NCBI RefSeq assembly: GCF_018760365.1
Contig: NZ_JAHIAB010000007.1
Span: 186,001 to 250,000, forward strand
Source of the DNA: Pseudooceanicola endophyticus
GTDB lineage: Bacteria > Pseudomonadota > Alphaproteobacteria > Rhodobacterales > Rhodobacteraceae
Length of the DNA: 64,000 nucleotides
Reading direction: 5' to 3'
A program made the position numbers and the translations under genes. Below are positions 6,799 to 29,470 of this stretch, piece after piece (the stretch's first letter is position 1; the number at the start of each line of letters is the position of its first letter). A model generated the notes under the pieces. The model was not told where the DNA came from. It was given only the letters and a program-made list of their open reading frames with translations, and did not search any database.

Positions 6799-9700
6799 CC
6801 CTGCTCTTCCTTCGGCGGACGCACCCCGAAGACCGCGCAGTAAAGCGCCGGCGCGAACAGGAGCGTGATGATCGTGCCCGCGATGATCCCGCCCATCATG
6901 GCATAGGCCATCGGGCCCCAGAACACCTGCCGCGAGATCGGGATCAGCGCAAGGCTTGCCGCTGCGGCGGTCAGCAGGATGGGCCGGGCGCGGCTGTCGG
7001 AGGCCTCAAAGACCGCCTCCCAGCGGGTGCGCCCCTTCGCCAGCAGGTCCTTCACCTCCTGGAACAGGATGACCGAGTTGCGGATCAGGATGCCGATCAG
7101 CGCCAGCACGCCCAGGATCGCCACGAAGCCCAGCGGCGCCCCCGATGGCAGCAGAGCCGCCACCACCCCGATCAGCCCCAGCGGCGCCACCGCAAGGACC
7201 ACGATCATCAGCCGGAAGCTTTGCATCTGCACCATGACGAGGGTCAGCATGATCAGCAGCATGATCGGCACCACCGCCAGGATCGGCGCCTGGCTTTCAC
7301 CGCTGGATTCCACCGCACCGCCCAGGGCGATGTTGTAGCCCGCCGGCATGTCCGCGCGGAACGCCTCTACCTTCGGCGCCAGATCCGCGACGATGGTGGC
7401 GGGCTGGGTATCGCCCAGAACGGCGCCCTCCACGGTGATCGTCGGCACCCGGTCGCGCTGGTAGATCACCGGCTGCTCGGTCGTCCATTCCAGCTTGGCG
7501 AAGGAGGACAGCGGCACCGGTTCGCCATCGGAATTTCCGAACTGGAGGTTTTCGAGCGTTTGCAGCGTGCTGCGGTCGCCCTCGACGCCGCGGGCCAGCA
7601 CCTCGACCAGCTTGTCGCCGTCGCGCAGGTCGGTGACCGAGGACCCCGAGAAGAGCTGGTAGAGCACATTCGCCACGTCCTGCTGGGTCAGCCCCAGCTG
7701 GCGCAGCCGCGCCTGGTCCAGCTGCACCCGCACCACCCGGGCCGGTTCGTTCCAGTCCAGGCTGATCGCGGTCAGGCGGGGGTCCTGCCCCAGCACGCCG
7801 GCCAGCTTGCGCGCGGTGTCGCGCAGCACTTCCGGATCATGCCCCGACACCCGGTACTGCACCGGCTTGCCCACCGGCGGACCAAGCGAGAGGAACTTGG
7901 GGAAGAACTCCACCCCGGCGGTGCGCGCATCATAGGCGCGGATCTTCTCGGTCAGGGCGTTGCGGGCGGCAAGGCCCGGGGTCATGATCACCACCTGTCC
8001 CATGCTGGGCGTCGCGGTCGGCGCATCCAGCGTCAGGATGAAGCGCGGCGCCGCGCGGCCCACATAGGCGCTCCAGTAGGTGGTTTCGGGCTGCTGGGCG
8101 AGCCAGGCCTCGAAATCCGTGATCGCCTTGTCGGTGGCGGCGAAATCGGCGTTCTGGCGCAGCGTCACGTCGACCAGCACCTCGGGGCGGTCCGAGGTCG
8201 GGAAGAACTGCTGCTCGACCCGGCCCAGCCCGACGACGGAGGCGGCGAAGACCAGCACGGTCAGCAGGATCGTCACCCATTTGAAGCGCATCGCCAGGCG
8301 CAGCGCCCGGTGGAAGCCCCGGCGCAGGCGGCCCGGCGCATGGGCGTCGTGCTTCTTCATGCTTTTCGGCAGGAAGGTCGCCCCCAGCACCGGCGCGAAC
8401 AGCACCGCGACGATCCAGCTGAGCACCAGAGAGATCGCGATCACGTAGAACAGCGAGCGGGTGTATTCCCCCGCCTGAGAGCTGTTCAGCCCGATCGGGA
8501 TGAAGCCTGCCACCGTGACCAGCGTGCCGGTCAGCATCGGGAAGGCGATGGAGGTCCAGGCATAGCTGGCGGCCTTCACGCGGCTCTCGCCCTGCTCCAT
8601 CCGGCTGATCATCGTCTCGATGGCGATCATCGCATCATCGACCAGCAGGCCGAGCGCGATGATCAGCGCGCCCAGCGACACCCGTTGCAGCGTCACCCCG
8701 ATGGCATCCAGGATCACGAAGGTGATCGCCAGCACCAGCGGGATTGCCAGCGTCACCACCATGCCCGCGCGCACCCCCAGCGACACGAAAGAGACGATCA
8801 GCACGATGATCACCGCCTCGGCCAGGGCCCGCACGAAGTGGTTGACGCTGTCGTCCACCACATGGGGCTGGTCGGCGACGCGGGTCATCTCGATCCCCAC
8901 GGGAAGCTCGGCCTGCACCTTGTCCATCAGCGTCTCAAGCTGCTTGCCGAAATCCAGGATATTCTCGCCGTCGCGCATCCCGATGGCCAGGGCGATGCCC
9001 TGCTTGCCATCCACCCGGAACAGCGCGGAGGGCGGATCCTCGTAGCCTGCCGTCACCGTCGCCACGTCCGAAAGCGTGAAGAAGGTGTCGCCCGCGCGCA
9101 GCGGCGCATAGGCCATCTCGTCGGCGGATTTGAAGTTGCCGGAGGTGCGCACCAGGATCTGCTCGGCCCCGGTGTGGATGATCCCCGAGGGCACGATGGC
9201 ATTCTGCGCCGCCAGCGTGTCCAGCACCGTCTGCTTGTCGAGGCCAAGCGCGGCGAGGCGGGCATTGGAGAACTCGATATGCACCACCGGGTCCTGTGTG
9301 CCGACCAGTTCGACCTTGCCGGCGGCGGGCAGTTGCAGCACCGCGTCGCGGACTTCGTCGACCTTCTCCTCCAGCTCGCGCGGGGAATAGCCATCGCCGG
9401 TGAAGGCGTAGATGGAGCCGTAGACATCGCCGAAGTCGTCGTTGAAGCCGAAGCCCTGGAACTCGTCCGGCATCTGGCTCTTGATGTCCGACATCATCTG
9501 CCGAACCCGCAGCCAGATCTGCTCCACCTCGTCGCCCGGCGTGGTGTCGCGCAGCTCCACGTAGACGACGGCCTGGCCCGGATAGGTCACCGAATGGGTG
9601 TAATCGAGCGTATCAAGCTCCTGAAGCTTCTTCTCGATCCGGTCGGTGACCTGGGTGACCGTCTCTTCCGCCGTGGCACCGGGCAGCGTGCCGGTGATCA

Positions 9701-19599: not shown

Positions 19600-21348
19600 T
19601 CACTCTGCCGCAGCGCGGCGTTGCCGGCACTCTGGCGCGGCCAGCGCCGTCCAGGCGTCATATTGCGACAGGAAGACCTTGCCGTTCATCTGGTCGAGGA
19701 AATGCGTGCTCTTCAGACGGTCCATCACCGGCCCCTTCACCTCCGAGAGGTGCAGCCCGATGCCGGCGGTGCGCAGCCTCCGGCTGATCGCCTCCAGGCT
19801 TTCCAGCGCCGAATAGTCGATGGAGTTCACCGCCGAGCACATCAGAACCACGTTCTTCACCCGGCTTCCCCGGGCCAGCCGGTCGGCGATCTGGTCTTCC
19901 AGGAAATGGGCATTGACGAAATAGAGGCTTTCGTCGACGCGCAGCGACAGCAGCGCCGGGTCGGTCAGCACGTCGTGGCGGTTGATGTTGCGGAAATGCT
20001 GGCTGCCCGGCACCAGCCCCACCTCGGCGACATGCGGCTTGGTGGTCTTGTAGAGATGCAGCAGGATCGAGATGCCGACCCCGGTGGACACGCCCGCCTC
20101 GACCCCCAGGCCCAGCGTCACCAGGATGGTCGCGGCAACGGCCCAGAAATCGGCCTTGGAATAGGCCCAGGTCTTTTTCAGGATGCTGAAATCGACCAGC
20201 CCCAGCACGGCCACGATGATGGTGGCGGCCAGCGTCGCCTTGGGCAGGTAATGCACCAGCGGCGTCAGCAGGGCGGCGGCAATGGCCAGGCCAACGGCGG
20301 TGAAGGCCCCGGCAGCGGGGGTGCGCGCCCCGGCATCGTAGTTCACCACCGAGCGGGCAAAGCCCCCGGTCACCGGATAGCCACCGGTGAAGGCCGCGCC
20401 GATATTGGCCGCGCCAAGGGCGATCAGCTCCTGGTCCGGGTCGATGCGCTGGTTCTCCTTCGCCGCGAAGGTCTGCGCGACCGAGATGGACTCCACGAAA
20501 CCGATGATCGAGATCAGCAGCGCCGGCACGAACAGCGTGCCCAGCAGCGCCGGCGACAGGTCCGGCAGGGTCAGCGGCGGCAGCGCCTGGGGCACGTCGC
20601 CGACGATGGCAACGCCATGGGCACCAAGGTCGAAGGCCCAGACCGCCAGCGTCGAGGCGATGATCGCCAGCACCGGGCCGGTCTTGGCCAGCATCCCCGC
20701 CAGCCCGGGCTTCAGCCCCAGCCGGACCAGCGCCCCCTTCATCCCCTTGCGGACCCAGAACAGGAAAGCCGTGGCCAGCACGCCGATCACCAGCGTCACC
20801 ACATGGGTCTGGCCGATATGGGCAAAGATGCTCTCGATCACCTCGGGCATGGTGTCGCCCGAGGCCTGCACCCCCAGGATCGACTTCAGCTGGCTGACCG
20901 CGATCAGCAGCCCCGAGGCGGTGATGAAACCGGCGATCACCGGATGCGACAGGAAATTGGCGATAAAGCCCAGCCGGAACAGCCCGGTGAAGACCAGGAT
21001 CGCGCCCGAGAGCAGCGCCAGCGTCAGCGCGGCAGTGGCATAGCCCATGGAGCCCTGCTGGGCCACCTGCCCCACCGCCGTCGCCGTCATCAGCGACACG
21101 ACCGCCACCGGCCCCACCGCCAGCGCCCCCGAGGTGCCGAACAGCGTGTAAAGCAGGATCGGCACGATCGAGGCGTAGATCCCGGCCTCGGGTGGCAGAC
21201 CGGCCAGCAGCGCATAGGCCAGCGACTGCGGGATCAGCATGATCGTCACGATCAGCGCCGCCATCAGGTCGTTGGACAGCGTGGGCCGGTCATAGGCACG
21301 GCCCCATTTCAGGATGGGCAGGTAGCGGGAGAGGACGCGGGCGGCCAT
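19600..21348 (-). CDS. SulP family anion transporter with STAS domain
   Basis: A 582-residue SLC26/SulP transporter. The N-terminal 430 residues are a series of hydrophobic helices with the family signatures (SNDLMAALIVTIMLIPQSLAYALLAGLPPEAGIYASIVPILLYTLFG in the first helices, and the Gly/Ala-rich FTGGYPVTGGFARSVVN region). The C-terminal STAS domain (about 440-560) carries SAVNSIDYSALESLEAI. SulP proteins carry sulfate, bicarbonate or other anions. As the last gene of the persulfide cluster (96 bases after the dioxygenase-like gene), export or exchange of sulfite/sulfate made by that enzyme is the likely role here. The direction of transport and the substrate are inferred from context only. 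Confidence 0.9.
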   Translation of the reverse strand: MAARVLSRYLPILKWGRAYDRPTLSNDLMAALIVTIMLIPQSLAYALLAGLPPEAGIYASIVPILLYTLFGTSGALAVGPVAVVSLMTATAVGQVAQQGSMGYATAALTLALLSGAILVFTGLFRLGFIANFLSHPVIAGFITASGLLIAVSQLKSILGVQASGDTMPEVIESIFAHIGQTHVVTLVIGVLATAFLFWVRKGMKGALVRLGLKPGLAGMLAKTGPVLAIIASTLAVWAFDLGAHGVAIVGDVPQALPPLTLPDLSPALLGTLFVPALLISIIGFVESISVAQTFAAKENQRIDPDQELIALGAANIGAAFTGGYPVTGGFARSVVNYDAGARTPAAGAFTAVGLAIAAALLTPLVHYLPKATLAATIIVAVLGLVDFSILKKTWAYSKADFWAVAATILVTLGLGVEAGVSTGVGISILLHLYKTTKPHVAEVGLVPGSQHFRNINRHDVLTDPALLSLRVDESLYFVNAHFLEDQIADRLARGSRVKNVVLMCSAVNSIDYSALESLEAISRRLRTAGIGLHLSEVKGPVMDRLKSTHFLDQMNGKVFLSQYDAWTALAAPECRQRRAAAE

Positions 21349-21444
21349 CGGAAGATCCTTTCAGGGCGAGAGGCAGCACCTCCCGCGGGCGGGGCACGTG
21401 GTCCGCAGGGGTGGGCCACGGGACGTTTCTCTGGATCGAACGGC

Positions 21445-22329
21445 TCAGAGCCCGTTCAGCGGCACCTTGAGGAAGCGCTTGCCGTCTTCATCCGCCGGCG
21501 GCAGCTCTCCGCCGCGCATGTTGATCTGCAGCGAGGGGATGATCAGCTTGGGCATCGCCAGGGTGGCGTCCCGCTCGGTGCGGAACTTGACGAAGTCTTC
21601 CTTGGTCTTGCCTTCGCCGACATGGATGTTGTGGGCCTTTTCCTCGGCCACGGTGGTTTCCCAGCGGATGTCGCGGCCGTTGGGGCCGTAGTCGTGGCAC
21701 ATGAAAAGACGGGTCTCTCCGGGCAGCGCCAGCACCTTCTGGATCGAGTCGTACAGCGTCGCCGCATCGCCGCCGGGGAAATCGGCGCGGGCCGATCCGC
21801 CATCGGGCATGAACAGCGTGTCGCCGACGAAGGCCGCGTCTCCGATCACGTGCACCATGCAGGCGGGCGTGTGGCCGGGGGTGTGGATCACCCGGGCGGT
21901 CATGGTGCCGATGGTGTAGGTATCGCCATCCTCGAACAGCCGGTCGAACTGGCTGCCGTCACGCTGGAACTCCGTCCCCTCGTTGAAGACCTTGCCGAAG
22001 GTGTCCTGCACCACGGTGATCTTGGATCCGATACCCAGCTTGCCGCCCAGCTTCTTCTGGATGTAGGGCGCCGCCGAAAGGTGATCGGCATGGACATGGG
22101 TCTCGATCAGCCATTCCAGGGTCAGGCCGTGTTCCTCGACGAAGGCGATCATCGTGTCGGCATGGTCATAGGTGATCCGCCCGGCGGCATAGTCGATGTC
22201 CATGACGGAATCGATGATCGCGCAGGCCTGCGAAGCCGGGTCCTTCACCACATAGGAGATCGTGTTGGTGGCCGCATCGAAGAAGCCGGTGACATCCGGA
22301 TGGACGGGGGCGTTTGAATGCTCGGTCAT
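21445..22329 (-). CDS. Persulfide dioxygenase-like metallo-beta-lactamase fold hydrolase
   Basis: A 294-residue metallo-beta-lactamase fold protein of the ETHE1/Blh type. Metal ligands are visible as His78-Val-His80-Ala-Asp82-His83, His153 (HTPGHTPAC), Asp170 (FVGDTLFMPDGGSARADFPGG) and His212 (MCHDYGP). The SARADFPGGDA stretch is the hallmark of persulfide dioxygenases, which oxidise glutathione persulfide to sulfite using one iron bound by two His and one Asp. The enzyme acts in the cytoplasm. The neighbouring YeeE/YedE pair and SulP transporter make a sulfide/persulfide detoxification module, similar to rhizobial bigR-blh operons but with a Crp/Fnr-type instead of an ArsR-type regulator upstream. 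Confidence 0.9.
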   Translation of the reverse strand: MTEHSNAPVHPDVTGFFDAATNTISYVVKDPASQACAIIDSVMDIDYAAGRITYDHADTMIAFVEEHGLTLEWLIETHVHADHLSAAPYIQKKLGGKLGIGSKITVVQDTFGKVFNEGTEFQRDGSQFDRLFEDGDTYTIGTMTARVIHTPGHTPACMVHVIGDAAFVGDTLFMPDGGSARADFPGGDAATLYDSIQKVLALPGETRLFMCHDYGPNGRDIRWETTVAEEKAHNIHVGEGKTKEDFVKFRTERDATLAMPKLIIPSLQINMRGGELPPADEDGKRFLKVPLNGL

Positions 22330-22357
22330 GGCAGGGACTCCGGTCGGTAAGGTGGGT

Positions 22358-22798
22358 TCAGGAAGCGTGCGCTGCCTGGCGTTGGGACTGGACCATCTTC
22401 ACCCCCCGCGCAATGAGCAACCCGGCAATCAGCGCGCCGACGAAGAGGAAGACCTGGGGGATGCCCGTTCCGAGGGCCGGCAGGGCGCCGCCCGGGCAGA
22501 AGCCCGCGATGCCCCAGCCAATGCCGAAGGTCAGCGACCCCAGCACCAGGCGGGTGTCGATCAGGGTGGTGCCCGGCAGCTGGAAGCCGGTTTCGAACAG
22601 CGGGCGCTGGCGGCGGAAGACCAGCCGGTAGCCGGGGATCGCCACCAGCAGCGCGCCGCCCATGACGAAGGCCAGACTGGGGTCCCATGTGCCGGCGATA
22701 TCGAAGAAGTTCAGTACCTTGGCCGGGTTGATCATCCCCGAGATCGCAATGCCGGTCCCGAAGACCAGCCCGATGAGAAGAGCGGTAAGGTAGCGCAT
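22358..22798 (-). CDS. YeeE/YedE family half-size membrane protein (second of pair)
   Basis: A 146-residue membrane protein with four predicted helices. Family motifs are seen as GTGIAISGMINPAKVLNFFDIAGTWDPSLAFVMGGAL and FGIGWGIAGFCPGGALPALGTG, the latter with the conserved Cys in a Gly-rich turn. Full-length YeeE proteins take up thiosulfate through conserved Cys residues; here the fold is split over two genes. Its start ATG (22796-22798) shares one base with the stop of the other half (TGATG), and GGGAGG lies 9-14 bases upstream, so the two halves are translationally coupled and presumably assemble together. Transport of a reduced sulfur species for or from the persulfide dioxygenase is inferred. 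Confidence 0.88.
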   Translation of the reverse strand: MRYLTALLIGLVFGTGIAISGMINPAKVLNFFDIAGTWDPSLAFVMGGALLVAIPGYRLVFRRQRPLFETGFQLPGTTLIDTRLVLGSLTFGIGWGIAGFCPGGALPALGTGIPQVFLFVGALIAGLLIARGVKMVQSQRQAAHAS

Positions 22799-23232
22799 CA
22801 GAAGCCTCCCAGCACGTGGCGGGTGATGAAGACAGAGAGGAAGGCGCCGGCCATGAAGACCAGCGTGGCGATCATCGAGCGGCGCGAGAAGCGGGCATTG
22901 CCGCAGACCCCGTGCCCCGAGGTGCAGCCGCCGCCGTAGGACACGCCGATGCCCACCAGCACCCCGCCCAGCACGATGGCAAGGTTGCCGATCGGGATCT
23001 GCACGACCGGGCCCTTGCCGGTCAGCAGCAGCAGCGCCAGGGGTGCGGCCATCATGCCGATCAGCAGGCTGGCGCGGATGCCCCAGTCCTGGGTGATCCG
23101 CGTGCTCAGCAGGCCCGAGAGGATGCCGGTGGCACCGAAGATGCGCCCGTGCACGGCCATCAGCAGGACCGCGGCCGTGCCGATCAGCAGGCCGCCTCCC
23201 AACGAGGCCAGGGGGGTGAATGCGGTTTCCAT
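22798..23232 (-). CDS. YeeE/YedE family half-size membrane protein (first of pair)
   Basis: A 144-residue membrane protein. The start chosen is the ATG at 23230-23232 with GGAAGGA upstream; an ATG five codons earlier is also possible. The motifs GGLLIGTAAVLLMAVHGRIFGATGILSGLL and GVSYGGGCTSGHGVCGNARFSRRSMIATLVFM are the N-terminal-half signatures of the family, with two Cys in the GGGCTSGHGVCG turn that correspond to substrate-handling cysteines of YeeE-type thiosulfate transporters. It is the first gene of the four-gene sulfur operon and is preceded by the inverted repeats at 23278-23335. Confidence 0.88.
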   Translation of the reverse strand: METAFTPLASLGGGLLIGTAAVLLMAVHGRIFGATGILSGLLSTRITQDWGIRASLLIGMMAAPLALLLLTGKGPVVQIPIGNLAIVLGGVLVGIGVSYGGGCTSGHGVCGNARFSRRSMIATLVFMAGAFLSVFITRHVLGGF

Positions 23233-23277
23233 GTCCTGTCCTTCCATCCGCCGGGGCGCGGGGCCCCGGCCCGGTGT

Positions 23278-23341
23278 GTTTCATGAAACGCTGTGTCGCA
23301 CGTCACCTGCCATTGTGACGGTGACTAGATCACCGAACCAA
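23278..23341 (-). promoter_or_regulatory. Promoter and two palindromes in front of the sulfur operon
   Basis: A 12-base perfect palindrome GTTTCATGAAAC lies at 23278-23289. A second inverted repeat, CGGTGA-CTAGA-TCACCG, lies at 23319-23335. On the minus strand the latter falls exactly in the spacer between a -35-like TTGGTT (complement of 23336-23341) and a -10-like CACAAT (complement of 23312-23317, spacer 18). Occupancy of the repeat would therefore control the promoter of the YeeE-YeeE-dioxygenase-SulP operon. The Crp/Fnr regulator encoded directly upstream is the natural candidate, although the five-base centre differs from classical CRP sites. Confidence 0.5.
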
Positions 23342-23399
23342 GAAAAAGATGCAGAAAATCGAATGCCGGCCCGAAATCCGCCCGCGCCCCGAAATCCGG

Positions 23400-24074
23400 T
23401 CAGCCTGCCGAGCGCGCCATGCGTTCGAGCCCGGCGCGCCCGGTGATCTTCACGGCGCCGCGGGATTGCTCGACCCAGCCGCGGCGCTGGAAATCCGCCA
23501 GCGTGCGCGAGATCACCTCGCGCGCGGTGCCCAGTTCGTTGGCCAGCACCTGATGGGTGGCATGAACCGTGTCGTCGGTCCCGGCCAGCTCCAGCAGGCG
23601 GGCGGCCAGCCGCACGTCAAGGCGCTGGAACACGATGTCATCGATCAGCGTCAGCAGATCGGTGATCCGGCGCGAGAAGGCACGGAACACCATTTGCCGG
23701 AACAGCGGAGAGCGCGCCACAAGGCTGTCGAAGGTCACGCGCGAGATCGCCAGCGCCTCGACGTCGGTCTCGGCGACGCCATCGGCAGAGTAATCCTCGT
23801 AGGCCAACATGCAGGCGGTGGTCATCACGCAGCTGTCGCCGGCATGAACCCGGTAGAGCGAGACCTCGCGCCCGGTTTCCGACTTCTGCTGCACCCGCAC
23901 GGTGCCCTGCACCAGCATCAGCAGGTTGTCACCGCTGTCGCCGGGCTGAAAGATCTGCTCTCCGGCGGCATAATGCACCAGGCGACTGCCCTTCACGAGT
24001 TCCTCGCGCAGGTCCTCGGGCAGATCCGCGAGGCCGTCGAAACGCGCCAGCCAATCCTGTTTGAGAAAGGTCAT
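23400..24074 (-). CDS. Crp/Fnr family regulator, candidate sulfur-responsive thiol switch
   Basis: A 224-residue Crp/Fnr protein. The cyclic-nucleotide-binding-like beta-roll covers about 20-125 (YAAGEQIFQPGDSGDNLLMLVQGTVRV), followed by the dimer helix and a winged helix-turn-helix at about 170-205 whose recognition helix reads TAREVISRTLADFQRRG, with the family's E-x-x-S-R. The Fnr iron-sulfur N-terminal cysteines are absent. The only two cysteines are Cys82 and Cys88 (GDSCVMTTACML), a C-x5-C pair inside the beta-roll. It lies on the same strand just upstream of the persulfide operon, separated by a 167-base promoter region. Sensing of persulfide or redox state through the Cys pair is inference. 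Confidence 0.9.
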   Translation of the reverse strand: MTFLKQDWLARFDGLADLPEDLREELVKGSRLVHYAAGEQIFQPGDSGDNLLMLVQGTVRVQQKSETGREVSLYRVHAGDSCVMTTACMLAYEDYSADGVAETDVEALAISRVTFDSLVARSPLFRQMVFRAFSRRITDLLTLIDDIVFQRLDVRLAARLLELAGTDDTVHATHQVLANELGTAREVISRTLADFQRRGWVEQSRGAVKITGRAGLERMARSAG

Positions 24075-24659
24075 CGGGGTCTCCGGTCGAACTGGCCCGA
24101 GTATAGGCCAGCCCCGGCAGAGGGAAAAGCCGCAGCGTGTCGCGCCCCCTGCCGTCCCCTGCCAGGAGCGGGCGGCGCTCCAATTACCATTAGTCGGATA
24201 TCATTTTAAATAGATGCATCCCCACGGAATTAATGGAACCCTCATCCATTAGCGCTAACGCGGGTTTTTCCGACCCGCCCCATTAACGATACGATACGGT
24301 TTTCAACTGGACAGTCGCCGGGATCTCGACAAAGTGGCGGCACGGGTGGCCGCCAGCGGCGCCACCACGACGGAAATCGGTCACTGACGGACTGATTCGC
24401 CCCTTGTTTGTCCGGGTGTGTAGGACCAACAGAGCCAATAAAACTTGGCATCTGAGCGCGATTTCTATATCCGCCGACAATCCCCGGAACCGTCCCGTTT
24501 CTACCCGATCGCGCGATTCGCCTACCCCTTCGGATAGGACATCTTTCCAAAGAACACCCCGCTCTGCCCGAAGTAATATTGCTGGGCGGATGCCATTTAC
24601 CTTAATCAATGGAACCCGGGACTATTCAAAACACGCCTATAATCCGCAAAGGAAACAAA
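24075..24659. other. 585-base intergenic region, locally AT-rich, with repeated CCATTA
   Basis: No gene is convincing here. The left end holds the promoter region of the Crp/Fnr gene, with a TATACT -10-like box on the minus strand (complement of 24100-24105) and a weak -35. From 24181 to 24300 the DNA is much richer in A/T than its surroundings and has CCATTA at 24187, 24246 and 24280 and inverted at 24231, plus a 10-base palindrome TTAGCGCTAA at 24249-24258. The rest is a long leader for the sqdB-like gene. A TATAAT at 24638 is too close to the start codon to be its -10 box. Confidence 0.6.
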
Positions 24660-25877
24660 ATGGCTCGCATTCTTGTTCTGGGCGGCGACGGCTTCTGCGG
24701 CTGGCCCACTTCCCTTCACCTGTCCGCGCTCGGCCACGATGTCGCTATTCTGGACAATCTTTCCCGCCGCCGCATCGACGCGCAGCTGGGATCCGACAGC
24801 CTGACCCCGATCGCGTCCATCGAGACCCGGATCGCTGCCTGGTCCGACCTGACCGGCCGGGACATTGCCTTTTACAACACCGATGCCGCAGATTTCGCGG
24901 CCCTGCGCCAGACCCTTGCCACGGTCCGGCCCGATACCATCATCCATTTCGCCGAACAGCGCGCCGCCCCCTATTCGATGAAGGGCGCCGAAGAGAAGGT
25001 CTACACGGTCAACAACAACATCGGCACCACGCACAACCTGCTGGCCGCCGTGACCGAACTGGGCCTGCACACCCATATCGTCCACCTGGGCACCATGGGC
25101 GTCTACGGCTACGACGGCGACGGGCTGGAGATCCCCGAAGGCTACCTGAACGTCTACGTGCCCGGCGACAACAAGCAGATCTTCCAGCGCGAGATCCTCT
25201 ATCCGACCAACCCCGGCTCGGTCTACCACATGACCAAGTCGATGGATCAGCTTCTGTTCCAGTTCTACGCCAAGAATGACCGGCTGCGGATCACCGACCT
25301 GCACCAGGGCATCGTCTGGGGCACCCAGACCGAGGAAACCCGGATGGACGAGCGGCTGATCAACCGCTTCGACTATGACGGCGACTACGGCACCGTGCTG
25401 AACCGCTTCCTGATGCAGGCCGCCATCGGCCACCCGCTGACGGTGCACGGCTTCGGCGGCCAGACCCGCGCCTTCATCAACATCCAGGACACCGTGCGCT
25501 GCGTGGCGCTGGCCGTGGCCAACCCGCCCGAGGAAGGCGACCGGGTGAAGATCATCAACCAGATGACCGAAACCCACCGCGTCCGCGACCTGGCCCGGCT
25601 GGTCAGCGCCGTCACCGGCGCCCGGGTCGCGATGGTCGAGAACCCGCGCAACGAAGCCCCCGAGAACGAGCTTCGCGTGTCCAACAAGACCTTCCTGTCG
25701 CTCGGCCTCGATCCGATCACGCTGAAGAACGGCCTGCTGGACGAAACGCTGGAAATCTCGCGCAAATACGCCCACCGCTGCCGCAAGGACATGATCCCCT
25801 GCGTCTCGACCTGGACCCAGAGCCAGCACCCCGGCGTCGTCTCGAACGAGGTCCCGCTGTTCGCCGTGGGAAAGTAA
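24660..25877 (+). CDS. sqdB: UDP-sulfoquinovose synthase homologue (SqdB/SQD1 family)
   Basis: A 405-residue extended short-chain dehydrogenase. The start ATG at 24660 has AAAGGA seven bases upstream. The NAD-binding turn is GGDGFCGWPTSLHLS (8-22), a form specific to SQD1-like enzymes rather than general epimerases. The catalytic set is seen as the Thr of HLGTMGVYG (about 145) and the Tyr/Lys of VYHMTKSMDQ (about 189 and 193). The protein also has the FAEQRAAPYSMK and HQGIVWGTQTEET segments of the family. SQD1 makes UDP-sulfoquinovose from UDP-glucose and sulfite. In sulfolipid loci sqdB stands with sqdD/sqdC or sqdX; here it is followed by a BcsB-like protein and a membrane glycosyltransferase instead, so a polysaccharide rather than a lipid may be the product. 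Confidence 0.85.
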   Translation: MARILVLGGDGFCGWPTSLHLSALGHDVAILDNLSRRRIDAQLGSDSLTPIASIETRIAAWSDLTGRDIAFYNTDAADFAALRQTLATVRPDTIIHFAEQRAAPYSMKGAEEKVYTVNNNIGTTHNLLAAVTELGLHTHIVHLGTMGVYGYDGDGLEIPEGYLNVYVPGDNKQIFQREILYPTNPGSVYHMTKSMDQLLFQFYAKNDRLRITDLHQGIVWGTQTEETRMDERLINRFDYDGDYGTVLNRFLMQAAIGHPLTVHGFGGQTRAFINIQDTVRCVALAVANPPEEGDRVKIINQMTETHRVRDLARLVSAVTGARVAMVENPRNEAPENELRVSNKTFLSLGLDPITLKNGLLDETLEISRKYAHRCRKDMIPCVSTWTQSQHPGVVSNEVPLFAVGK

Positions 25878-25910
25878 CCCCCGATCAAAGCTAGACGAAC
25901 CGCCTGACCG

Positions 25911-25932
25911 CCCGTGCCCTTCGGGGCGCGGG
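25911..25932 (+). repeat. Stem-loop with TTCG tetraloop between sqdB-like and BcsB-like genes
   Basis: A nine-pair stem (one G-T pair) with arms at 25911-25919 and 25924-25932 closes a TTCG loop, an exceptionally stable RNA tetraloop. It lies in the 92-base gap between the two genes and has no T run after it, so it more likely stabilises or partly attenuates the transcript than ends it. Confidence 0.5.
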
Positions 25933-25969
25933 TGCTTCGGTGCGGCCCAAGACATTTAGGTACGAATTC

Positions 25970-27610
25970 ATGCGACTGTTTGGCCTGGCCCTTCTGGCCT
26001 TCCTGCTGGCCGGCGCGGCCGTGGCGCTGTCCTACCTGCGCGCCGACGACATCCTGGTGAAGGCCCGCGACCTGGTGAGCAACCCGCCGCTGCGCTTCGA
26101 ACAGGTGACGCCGGTGCAGTCGCACCCCAAGGACCAGACCACCCTGACCCTGCGCGCCGACCCCGAGGCGCCGATGATCCTGTCGGGCGTGCCCGCCTAC
26201 CAGGGGGCGGCCTTCGTGCTGCCCTTCGATGCCCGCCCCACCGGCGGCACGCTGGTGATCGACACCACATCCCAGACCCTGCCCGGGATCGAGGCGGTAT
26301 TGCGCGTCACCCTCAACGGCACCCGCCGCGCCGAGCTGCTGCTGGGCGCCGGCCACCTGACCCGCCGGATCGAGATCCCGCTGACCGCCGAGGAGCTTTC
26401 GGGCGGCGTGCTGCCGGTCTCCTTCAGCCTGCAGGGCCATGGCACCAACGCCCCCTGCTCCGAGGACGGCATTGGCGCCGTGGTCGAGATCGAGCCCTCC
26501 AGCGCGCTGCACCTGGAACTGGACAAGCCGGTCTCAAGCCTGCGCGACCGGGTCATCGCCTGGGGCGATACGGTGCGCATCGGCTGGCCCGAGACGCTGG
26601 ACCGGGACACCCGCCAGCAGCGTCTGGCCCTGGGCGCCGCGCTGATCCGCCAGCACTATGCCCTGGCCTTCCGGACCGCCCCCGGGGCCGACGCCCTGAC
26701 CACCGAAGACCTGGCCGCGCTGCAGGCGCTCCGCCCGCTGCCCACCGCCCTGCGCACCCGCAGCGAGGCCGAGGTCCTCAGCTATAACTGGCCCGTCGAC
26801 CTCTCGACCCTGGGCGGCAATGGCGGCACCCGGCATTTCTACCGCGACACCACTTGGCGCGCGCGCTTCGATCCCGGCCAGCTGCCCGAGGGCGAGGTGC
26901 CCCGGACCCTGCATCTGAAGATGGCGCTCGGCCCGCTGCCGCGCGATACCGACTGGACCGTCTCGGTCACCGCGAACGGCAACCTGGTCAGCGCGGCCAA
27001 GCTGCCCGGCGACATCGGGACCTACACCCCCGAAATCGCCCTGCCCGCCCTGCCCGCCAACCAGCCCGCCACGATCGAGATCACCGCGACCTCGGATTAC
27101 GACATCACCGGGATCTGCAACAACGGCCCGCAGCTGCTGGCCGAGCTTCAGCCCGGCACCACCGTCACCGGCGGGCCCAGCCCTCTGGCCGATCCGCTGG
27201 GCGCGCTGCGCCGCCGCATCGCTCGGGACGGGCATCTGGGCGTGACGCTCGGCACCGAACTGACCGGCCCCGAGGCCGCCCGGATCGCGCCGCTGATCGC
27301 CACCCTGGCCCCCGCCGGCACCGCCATCACCGCCGGAGACGACAGCGCCCACCCCCTTGCCGTCGCCGTGTCCGGCGCCCTGGTGGCGGATGCCGCGGCG
27401 CTGACCCGGCCCGGCTGGGACCACTGGGTGATCTGGTCAGATCCCGACACCCAGCTGCCGCGCGCCCTGCCGCTGGCACAGGCCGAAAGCCGCTACGGCG
27501 GGCTGATCTGGCCGGCGGCGGTGCTGCTGTCGCTGCCGGTGCCGCCCCGCCCCGCCACCGTGCCGCAGGATCCCGCCGCACCGCAGCCCGCCGCCGTGCC
27601 GATCCGCTGA
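25970..27610 (+). CDS. BcsB-like periplasmic polysaccharide-synthase partner
   Basis: A 546-residue exported protein. The ATG at 25970 begins a signal anchor (MRLFGLALLAFLLAGAAVALSYL). The rest is beta-rich, with repeated segments of the type TLVIDTTSQTLPGIEAVLRVTLNGTRR and LPVSFSLQGHGTNAPCSEDGIGAVVEIEPSSALHLEL. The C-x(n)-WxxI-x-x-x-S-x-L-x-L pattern around Cys163 and a second Cys near 383 resembles the carbohydrate-binding/flavodoxin-like repeats of cellulose synthase subunit BcsB. A clear C-terminal membrane helix, present in BcsB, is not seen; the tail is Pro-rich. BcsB-type proteins guide the nascent glucan out through the periplasm. The glycosyltransferase gene follows after nine bases. 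The assignment is by pattern and context; a search could change it. Confidence 0.6.
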   Translation: MRLFGLALLAFLLAGAAVALSYLRADDILVKARDLVSNPPLRFEQVTPVQSHPKDQTTLTLRADPEAPMILSGVPAYQGAAFVLPFDARPTGGTLVIDTTSQTLPGIEAVLRVTLNGTRRAELLLGAGHLTRRIEIPLTAEELSGGVLPVSFSLQGHGTNAPCSEDGIGAVVEIEPSSALHLELDKPVSSLRDRVIAWGDTVRIGWPETLDRDTRQQRLALGAALIRQHYALAFRTAPGADALTTEDLAALQALRPLPTALRTRSEAEVLSYNWPVDLSTLGGNGGTRHFYRDTTWRARFDPGQLPEGEVPRTLHLKMALGPLPRDTDWTVSVTANGNLVSAAKLPGDIGTYTPEIALPALPANQPATIEITATSDYDITGICNNGPQLLAELQPGTTVTGGPSPLADPLGALRRRIARDGHLGVTLGTELTGPEAARIAPLIATLAPAGTAITAGDDSAHPLAVAVSGALVADAAALTRPGWDHWVIWSDPDTQLPRALPLAQAESRYGGLIWPAAVLLSLPVPPRPATVPQDPAAPQPAAVPIR

Positions 27611-27619
27611 GGTGACGCC

Positions 27620-29470
27620 ATGGCAATGACCGAGACCGACAAGCGCAGCGAGATCATCTTCGACTCCGTCGACAGCAACCCGCGCCGCTTTGCCGTCGCG
27701 GTGCCGCAATGGAAGGCGCCCGCCACCCTGGTCAGCTTCGTTCTGATCGCCTGGGGCCTGCTGTGGCTGCGCGGCCTGCCCGGGATGGACCGGGTCTTCA
27801 CCGGCCATGACTTCCTGCTGACCGACTATGCGGGCAGCCATTCCATCGCGGTGCGGATCTTCGTCCTGGCCTTCTTCCTGGCCTTCTCGCTCTTTGCCAC
27901 GGCCTCTTTTCTGGGACGGCTGATGTTCCTCGTCGACCTGCTGGTCACCTATGCGCTGCTCTGTGCGGTCCTCGATCTGGCCAATGGCGTGATCGCCACC
28001 TTCGGAGGCATCCGCTACCCGATGGCCCTGACCGAGATCGCCAGCGGCATCTTCGGCTTCGCCCTCTTCGCCTTCAAGCTGCTGGAACGCGGCCAGATGC
28101 CCTCGCGCATCCAGATGGTCTACCGGCCCGGGCGCACCGGGCCGGCGCTGGTCCGGCTGATTGTCACCCTGGCCCTGGCTGCCGCCGGCGCCTGCTGGGT
28201 CGCCGCGCTGGATCTGCCGCTGGTGCACTGGCTGCGCGCGGTGTCGCTGCTGGGGGGGATCGGGCCCGGGGTCTTCCTGTTCCTGCCGCTGTTCTTCGTG
28301 CAGATCTACCTGCTGGGCCGCTGGGACGACTGGCGCGTGCAGCGCCGCCGCATCCGCGATCCCTTCACCCCGCCGCTCAGCATCATCGTGCCCGCCTACA
28401 ACGAGGAATACATCATCGCCCGCACCATCGAGGCGATCGATGTCGCCGCCTCGAACTATGCCGGGCCGGTGCATGTGCTGATCCTCGACAACAACTCCTC
28501 GGACCGGACCGGCCAGATCGCCCGCGACGCGCTGGCCGCCTGCCGTGCCGCCACCGGCGAGGTGCTGCACATCCCCACCCCCGGCAAATCCCACGCGCTG
28601 AACGCGGGCCTTGCCGCCGTGCAGACCGAGTTCCTGATCCGCGTCGATGCCGATACCCAGCTGGGCCGCGACAACCTGGCCCGGGCGATGCAGTATTTCC
28701 GCGATCCCGGCGTGGGCTGCGTCGGCGGGATGCCGATGCCCCCCGGCGGCGGCCCCTTCGACAGCGCCCGCCTGCTGGAGGTCATGGTCAAGCACGGCTT
28801 CTATTCGGTGGGCTTCACCGCCATCAACTGCGTGGTCGGCATCCCGGGCATGTTCGTGTGCTACCGCACCGCCCACCCGCGCGAGCTGGGCGGCTTCGTC
28901 GAGGGCATGAACGGAGAGGATACCGACATTTCCCTGCGCATCGGAGAGATGGGCTATCTCTCGGTGGTCGATCCCAACATCCGCTACATTTCCGAGGTGC
29001 CGACCACCTACCGCCACATGCGCGAGCAGCGCATCCGCTGGTTCCGCTCAGTCTACCACATCAGCGCACGCTGCCGGGACCTGATCTATTCGCCCTGGCC
29101 GACGCTGCGCGGCAAGCTGCTGCTGCCCTTCATGCTGGTGAACTCGGGACGCCGCACCATGCTGCTGCCGCTGTTCCTGTTCGGCCTGATCGAGCATTTC
29201 GGCCAGTTCAACCCGGTTCGCCCGGTGCTGTGGTCGGCAATCCTCGCGCTGCTGATCGGGGCGCCGGCGCTGATGGCGATCTTCGCCGCCTGCGCCAATG
29301 GCCGCCCCGGCGCGATCCGCGCCATGGGGCCCTACCTGCTGTTCCGCTTCCTGAGGGCCTATTTCACGCTGGAATCCATGCTCTCGATCCGGATCACGCC
29401 GCGCCGAGAGGATCTGGCCCGCGCCTACCTGAAGAACATCGTGCCGCGCAAGCCGCTGCGGGTGGCCTGA
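27620..29470 (+). CDS. Membrane family-2 glycosyltransferase, processive-synthase type
   Basis: A 616-residue protein with GAGGTGA seven bases before its start. Helices at about 31-50, 73-97, 98-117, 130-155, 172-195 and 205-232 precede a cytosolic GT-A domain beginning with LSIIVPAYNEEYIIARTIEAID. Catalytic features are the DxD (Asp343-Ala-Asp345, VDADTQ), the acceptor-side Glu-Asp of NGEDTDIS (about 432-433) and QRIRW (about 470-474), the Q-x-x-R-W signature of processive synthases such as cellulose, hyaluronan and chitin synthase. Two or more C-terminal helices follow. There is no PilZ domain at the C-terminus. With the BcsB-like partner it should polymerise and export a glycan; use of UDP-sulfoquinovose is inferred from the first gene of the unit. 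Confidence 0.85.
   Translation: MAMTETDKRSEIIFDSVDSNPRRFAVAVPQWKAPATLVSFVLIAWGLLWLRGLPGMDRVFTGHDFLLTDYAGSHSIAVRIFVLAFFLAFSLFATASFLGRLMFLVDLLVTYALLCAVLDLANGVIATFGGIRYPMALTEIASGIFGFALFAFKLLERGQMPSRIQMVYRPGRTGPALVRLIVTLALAAAGACWVAALDLPLVHWLRAVSLLGGIGPGVFLFLPLFFVQIYLLGRWDDWRVQRRRIRDPFTPPLSIIVPAYNEEYIIARTIEAIDVAASNYAGPVHVLILDNNSSDRTGQIARDALAACRAATGEVLHIPTPGKSHALNAGLAAVQTEFLIRVDADTQLGRDNLARAMQYFRDPGVGCVGGMPMPPGGGPFDSARLLEVMVKHGFYSVGFTAINCVVGIPGMFVCYRTAHPRELGGFVEGMNGEDTDISLRIGEMGYLSVVDPNIRYISEVPTTYRHMREQRIRWFRSVYHISARCRDLIYSPWPTLRGKLLLPFMLVNSGRRTMLLPLFLFGLIEHFGQFNPVRPVLWSAILALLIGAPALMAIFAACANGRPGAIRAMGPYLLFRFLRAYFTLESMLSIRITPRREDLARAYLKNIVPRKPLRVA

Follow-up and report, generated by a model that had tools for sequence, protein, structure and literature searches.

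The stretch of DNA considered here (the window) comprises 64,000 nucleotides from a 5.2 Mb genome of Pseudooceanicola endophyticus (G000, contig C44, positions 186001-250000). Within it lies a cassette of three consecutive genes that brings together a UDP-sulfoquinovose synthase, a BcsB-like protein, and a membrane glycosyltransferase (GT) of family 2 (GT2). As the original prediction had placed them, the list of open reading frames (ORFs) of the window has all three genes on the + strand, separated by gaps of 62 and 9 bases:

24660-25877, + strand: SqdB-type UDP-sulfoquinovose synthase (alternative upstream ATG at 24609)
25940-27610, + strand: BcsB-like protein, membrane-anchored at its N terminus, with domain order CBD1-FD1-CBD2-FD2
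27620-29470, + strand: GT2 membrane synthase with DxD, ED, and QxxRW motifs and helices on either side of the catalytic domain

For the first gene, the ATG at 24660, which has AAAGGAAAC shortly 5' of it, is the likelier start.

The three gene products

The SqdB product can be placed among enzymes of sulfoquinovose synthesis by several routes. It matches the Epimerase family of Pfam (83.3 bits), finds the Arabidopsis SQD1 structures 1qrr and 1i24 in a search of the PDB (E 4e-101), and shares 63% identity (390 residues) with the SqdB encoded beside sqdD on pSymB of Sinorhizobium. The SQD1-type residues reported earlier from the sequence, namely GGDGFCGW and a Thr/Tyr/Lys set, are indeed present, and His183 completes the four catalytic residues Thr145, Tyr182, His183, and Lys186 (SQD1 numbering). 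Among 78 SqdBs from cassettes of this kind, Tyr182, His183, and Lys186 are each found in all 78, Thr145 in 77 (serine in the remaining one), and Arg101 in 77 (a gap in the other). A paper on the archaeal enzyme Agl3 names Thr145/Tyr182/Lys186 as the SQD1 triad and reports that a Thr-to-Ala mutant of Agl3 retained activity (PMC4388408), so the conserved threonine alone proves little. Given its close homologues and intact active site, the cassette SqdB is expected to make UDP-sulfoquinovose.

Alternatively, the SqdB-like enzyme could make a different 6-modified or 5,6-unsaturated UDP-sugar, giving a polymer that is not sulfonated. For instance, Agl3 deprived of a sulfur donor turns UDP-glucose into UDP-glucose-5,6-ene (PMC4388408), and the window SqdB scores 338.9 bits with the equivalog model NF041015, below its curated cut-off of 575. 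However, three SqdBs that adjoin an SqdD homologue also fall below that cut-off (331 to 342 bits), which means that it does not divide true from false here, and it was dropped as an argument against SqdB identity. At E 1e-60 or better, 37 of 149 genomes of the same bacterial family give a match, the three just mentioned among them, and not one of the 149 passes the cut-off. By the rule applied, the cassette SqdBs and those adjacent to sqdD are told apart by just nine alignment columns, none of them catalytic. Taken with the 63% identity to a sqdD-adjacent SqdB, this makes a different sugar nucleotide very unlikely.

In a tree of 102 rows, 11 sqdD-adjacent SqdBs make up one side of a branch (support 99) and 77 of the 78 cassette SqdBs one side of another (support 87), in a topology that comes from a quick search and has several long branches and a weak root. 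The exception, from locus L091, groups with two SqdBs adjacent to PAPS (3'-phosphoadenosine 5'-phosphosulfate) reductase and one further SqdB. Other SqdB relatives were encountered outside the cassette. Three SqdB-like genes of family genomes (L123, L124, and L125) score 430 to 452 bits with NF041015, closer to the model than the cassette type. Two Rhodobacterales plasmids carry an SqdB-like gene near a PAPS reductase and glycosyltransferases (L136 6998-10761 and L137 6998-8904), sets that may make a different sulfoquinovose glycan and supply the sulfite for it. An Agrobacterium plasmid (L138 8998-10218) carries a distant SqdB relative (42%) among glycosyltransferases, methyltransferases, and an acyl-homoserine lactone synthase.

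The second product matches PF03170 at 32.5 bits (cut-off 21), covering residues 72-195 only, and its predicted structure has the CBD1-FD1-CBD2-FD2 fold, with BcsB as the best match among solved structures. The BcsB-like pattern described in the original prediction stands, with the correction that the protein is anchored at its N terminus and is without the C-terminal parts of BcsB. A hydrophobic N-terminal segment occurs in 80 of 81 BcsB-like proteins and a C-terminal one in 6 of the 81; PF20916, the C-terminal alpha-beta part of BcsB, was absent from the window protein and from 58 aligned members at E <= 0.01. The protein probably works like BcsB but is not classed as one, because it is without PF20916 and its relatives are usually without a C-terminal anchor. 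A profile search of the PDB with the alignment of BcsB-like proteins returned two matches, neither of them credible.

The third product matches GT2 families of Pfam and has no PilZ match. Its DxD (D343, D345), ED (E433, D434), and QxxRW (Q470, R473, W474) motifs are each kept in 82 of 82 family members, the window enzyme included. The first aspartate of the D-DxD-ED-QxxRW set proposed earlier did not hold in the same way: the D290 position is aspartate in 31 members and asparagine in 51. These motifs are those of processive membrane GT2 enzymes in the broad sense; the enzyme does not qualify as a BcsA, scoring 23.5 bits with TIGR03030 (cut-off 699.1). An AlphaFold2 model (predicted local distance difference test 91.1, predicted template modelling score 0.90) flanks the GT domain with helices, and its structural matches are led by PcManGT, followed by hyaluronan synthase (Z 1.4 lower) and BcsA (Z 1.8 lower). 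A model of the GT2-BcsB pair had been suggested as a check; modelled one by one, the two proteins come out as a BcsB-type protein and as a GT2 whose fold is that of PcManGT and of hyaluronan and cellulose synthases. Elsewhere in the same genome (contig C2; L001 484-2355) there is a GT2 that has QxxRW and begins with an MshEN domain.

Recurrence of the cassette and the sulfolipid pathway

To survey related loci, contigs were scanned with a profile of the GT, which gave 126 relatives, and the best 80 of the 126 were kept; the profile was built from five loci that are among these 80. All three genes are present at 75 of the 80 loci (70 of 75 without the five source loci), in the same order and direction at 74. 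As the loci were fetched by the GT alone, this linkage is beyond chance. The BcsB-like stop codon and the GT start overlap by 4 bases at 50 of 77 three-gene loci (82 loci examined). A search of Rhodobacterales had been proposed; the neighbourhood does recur there, and its range is wider. Among the best 80 relatives, carriers are Alphaproteobacteria, many of them marine, and some Actinomycetota, and they include Rhodobacterales, Sphingomonadales, Devosia, Nocardia, Rhodococcus, and Gordonia. A plasmid of Rhodococcus qingshengii carries the cassette too. The BcsB-like protein was found in 7 of the 149 family genomes, in all 7 of which SqdB and GT adjoin, with SqdB convergent in two (G038 and G073), and the GT was found at E 1e-80 in 3 of 385 genomes of the class, the window's included.

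Departures from the standard arrangement are few. SqdB is convergent at L091, and L103 is without the BcsB-like gene; there, a 429-residue ORF (7234-8523) precedes SqdB. Four loci (L080, L087, L093, and L106) are without an adjoining SqdB, which is found elsewhere in the genome in all four cases; for L106 it is the SqdB that adjoins sqdD.

This linkage bears on the possibility that UDP-glucose is the substrate from which the GT and its BcsB-like partner build a neutral glucan, with UDP-sulfoquinovose used as a minor decoration or on another acceptor by unlinked enzymes. GT2 synthases with such a fold often use UDP-glucose, and the cassette has a single glycosyltransferase. On the other hand, SqdB adjoins the GT at 76 of the 80 loci across two phyla, and pairwise identities of GT and SqdB rise together (rho 0.89 over 2926 pairs, with shared ancestry not removed), which fits a dedicated donor. 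Nor was a second transferase seen, by annotation or sequence, among the ten neighbour families present in at least six loci, not all ten of which were scanned. We therefore regard a neutral glucan as improbable.

The relation to sulfolipid (sulfoquinovosyl diacylglycerol, SQDG) synthesis was followed in 56 cassette genomes, made up of the 7 family genomes and those of 49 of the 80 loci. SqdD was not found in 51 of the 56 at E <= 1e-10, among them the window's genome, in which there is also no second SqdB. The other five have SqdD in an operon apart from the cassette, next to an SqdB and a homologue of SqdC. The absence of sqdD and sqdC beside the cassette, claimed from the window sequence, was borne out: at E 1e-8, neither the window nor the flanks of the other loci gave an SqdD or SqdC homologue (the SqdX type was not searched), and the flanks searched gave no nearby sulfolipid glycosyltransferase partner, which had been named as a finding that could overturn the original prediction.

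With SqdD undetected in so many carriers, the cassette could take its place: the GT would attach a single sulfoquinovose to a lipid of the membrane or to some acceptor in the envelope, and the BcsB-like protein would move or present the glycolipid. It also fits this idea that PcManGT, the top structural match, is a mannosyltransferase by title. Several observations point the other way. QxxRW, invariant in the GT family, does not appear in PcManGT as aligned; sqdBDC and the cassette occur together in five genomes; and a candidate outer-membrane barrel, described below, is associated with the cassette. No use of the BcsB fold in lipid glycosylation is known to us. Replacement of SqdD by the cassette is thus an unlikely explanation.

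A candidate outer-membrane barrel and neighbouring genes

One family in the locus flanks is probably an outer-membrane barrel. Its members are about 300 residues long and beta-rich by pattern, and the one member scanned gave a weak BBP2_2 match (18.1 bits, cut-off 23.7); a profile search of the PDB with the family alignment gave no matches. Clustering finds the family flanking 18 loci, and its profile finds it flanking 21 of the 80. An alignment of 15 of the 18 has 15 invariant columns, six of which are arginine. The alginate porin has a positively charged pore, and the barrel may similarly be a pore whose arginines face an anionic chain, judging from its sequence.

The barrel was found in 22 of the 56 cassette genomes; 12 of these supplied profile sequences and 10, including the window's, did not. 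It was not found in either of the two actinobacterial genomes among the 56. In the family survey it is present in 3 of 7 cassette genomes vs 0 of 142 others, an association with a one-sided Fisher P of 6.5e-5, or 0.0014 without G100, a genome that supplied a profile sequence. In the window's genome the barrel gene lies at 113839-114723 of contig C12, unlinked to the cassette, where it adjoins genes for a hybrid histidine kinase, a small molybdopterin-domain protein, and a LuxR-type regulator (L168 5311-10820). Homologues of these three flank the cassette at 33, 32, and 31 of 82 loci, respectively. The trio was considered as a cassette-specific set and rejected: the molybdopterin-domain protein is present in 85 of the 149 family genomes, and the trio is on that account a common module.

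Upstream of the cassette, on the - strand at 19600-24074 of the window, is a block of sulfur genes with a SulP permease, a persulfide-dioxygenase-type protein, a Crp/Fnr regulator, and matches to DUF6691 and, weakly, to Sulf_transp. The persulfide-dioxygenase-type protein matches the dioxygenase half of Blh (403 bits, cut-off 625). Persulfide dioxygenase yields sulfite, which is the co-substrate of SqdB. As conserved partners of the cassette, two of these proteins were tried and rejected: SulP is found in the window and at 5 of 6 actinobacterial loci and at 0 of 75 other loci (E 1e-15), and the persulfide dioxygenase in the window and L053 only. An alkylsulfatase-type protein flanks 5 of the 6 actinobacterial cassette loci (L014 10603-12507, L118, L119, L120, and L121), possibly, like SulP there, for the supply of sulfur.

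Proposed function and comparison with known systems

We consider the cassette to be, rather probably, a synthase-dependent system that secretes a sulfoquinovose polysaccharide and brings its own enzyme for the precursor. A machine for making and exporting such a polysaccharide was the reading first put forward, and the recurrence of the cassette, the scarcity of SqdD, and the BcsB and GT2 folds all favour it; the product, together with donor use by the GT, polymerisation, linkage, and export route, is what we infer from these. In this system, SqdB would turn UDP-glucose and sulfite into UDP-sulfoquinovose, as its close homologues and intact active site suggest. The membrane GT2, going by its motifs and fold, could then polymerise sulfoquinovose, alone or with glucose, and pass the chain over the inner membrane via its own helices, like BcsA and hyaluronan synthase. 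GT2 enzymes invert, so the linkage is probably beta. The N-terminally anchored BcsB-like protein, given its fold, may take and guide the chain outside the inner membrane. In some Gram-negative carriers the barrel with invariant arginines, linked or unlinked, may release the anionic chain through the outer membrane, a step suggested by its association and sequence. The outcome would be a sulfonated exopolysaccharide or capsule rather than SQDG. A narrower proposal, which we hold only tentatively, is that the product is a beta-linked sulfoquinovose homopolymer, in effect a naturally 6-sulfonated cellulose-like chain; the dedicated GT2-BcsB-type machine that makes it would have passed between Alphaproteobacteria and Actinomycetota.

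The original prediction knew of no described bacterial synthase of this type, and a literature search agreed: among the matches listed (titles and the starts of abstracts) from open-licence papers, with subscription journals and preprints outside its scope, there was no bacterial sulfoquinovose polymer and no such synthase. Sulfoquinovose and its conjugates are counted among the most abundant organosulfur metabolites and, in the available portion of that paper, treated as the SQDG headgroup and derivatives (PMC13372026). Sulfoquinovose also occurs in Sulfolobus glycans (PMC4388408, PMC9549778). A 2025 paper on microbial mats includes UDP-sulfoquinovose synthase in its set of sugar-nucleotide enzymes bearing on the potential of cyanobacteria for exopolysaccharide production (PMC12555021), and in the accessible part of a Salmonella capsule paper sulfoquinovose catabolism appears only as a citation (PMC7922415). 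If our interpretation is true, a secreted polysaccharide would be a second pool of sulfoquinovose beside SQDG, and the homopolymer, if real, a polymeric, non-lipid source of it. The cassette would also give genetic access to sulfonated polymers of strong negative charge, and would show BcsB-type secretion retooled for another sugar.

Comparison with known systems helps to place the cassette. It shares with the sqdBDC pathway an SqdB that is 63% identical (Sinorhizobium) with the same active site, but differs in having no adjoining SqdD (GT8) or SqdC, SqdD itself being undetected in most of the carriers searched. Archaeal Agl3 is likewise a UDP-sulfoquinovose synthase that serves surface glycans rather than lipid (PMC4388408), although in Sulfolobus the glycan is a protein N-glycan and not a polymer secreted by a GT2-BcsB pair. 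Hyaluronan synthase, unlike the cassette enzyme, uses two UDP-sugars and has no BcsB partner. A further parallel is BcsA-BcsB. The window's genome has a cellulose operon of its own, encoding BcsA (887.7 bits with TIGR03030), BcsB (PF03170 and PF20916, 173.8 bits), and a BcsZ-like protein of glycoside hydrolase family 8, on C44 at about 257-263 kb, some 7-13 kb beyond the window end (L171 7247-13007). We therefore rejected the cassette as the genome's cellulose synthase, and it is not the sole BcsAB-type machine there. In both systems a membrane GT2 with DxD, ED, and QxxRW stands beside a partner with the order CBD-FD-CBD-FD, and the same sequence of work is likely: polymerisation, passage across the inner membrane, and periplasmic guidance. 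Where BcsB has PF20916 and a C-terminal anchor, the cassette partner is without the former and is anchored at its N terminus; the cassette GT is without a PilZ match, and, unlike BcsA-BcsB, the cassette carries its own UDP-sugar enzyme in the operon.

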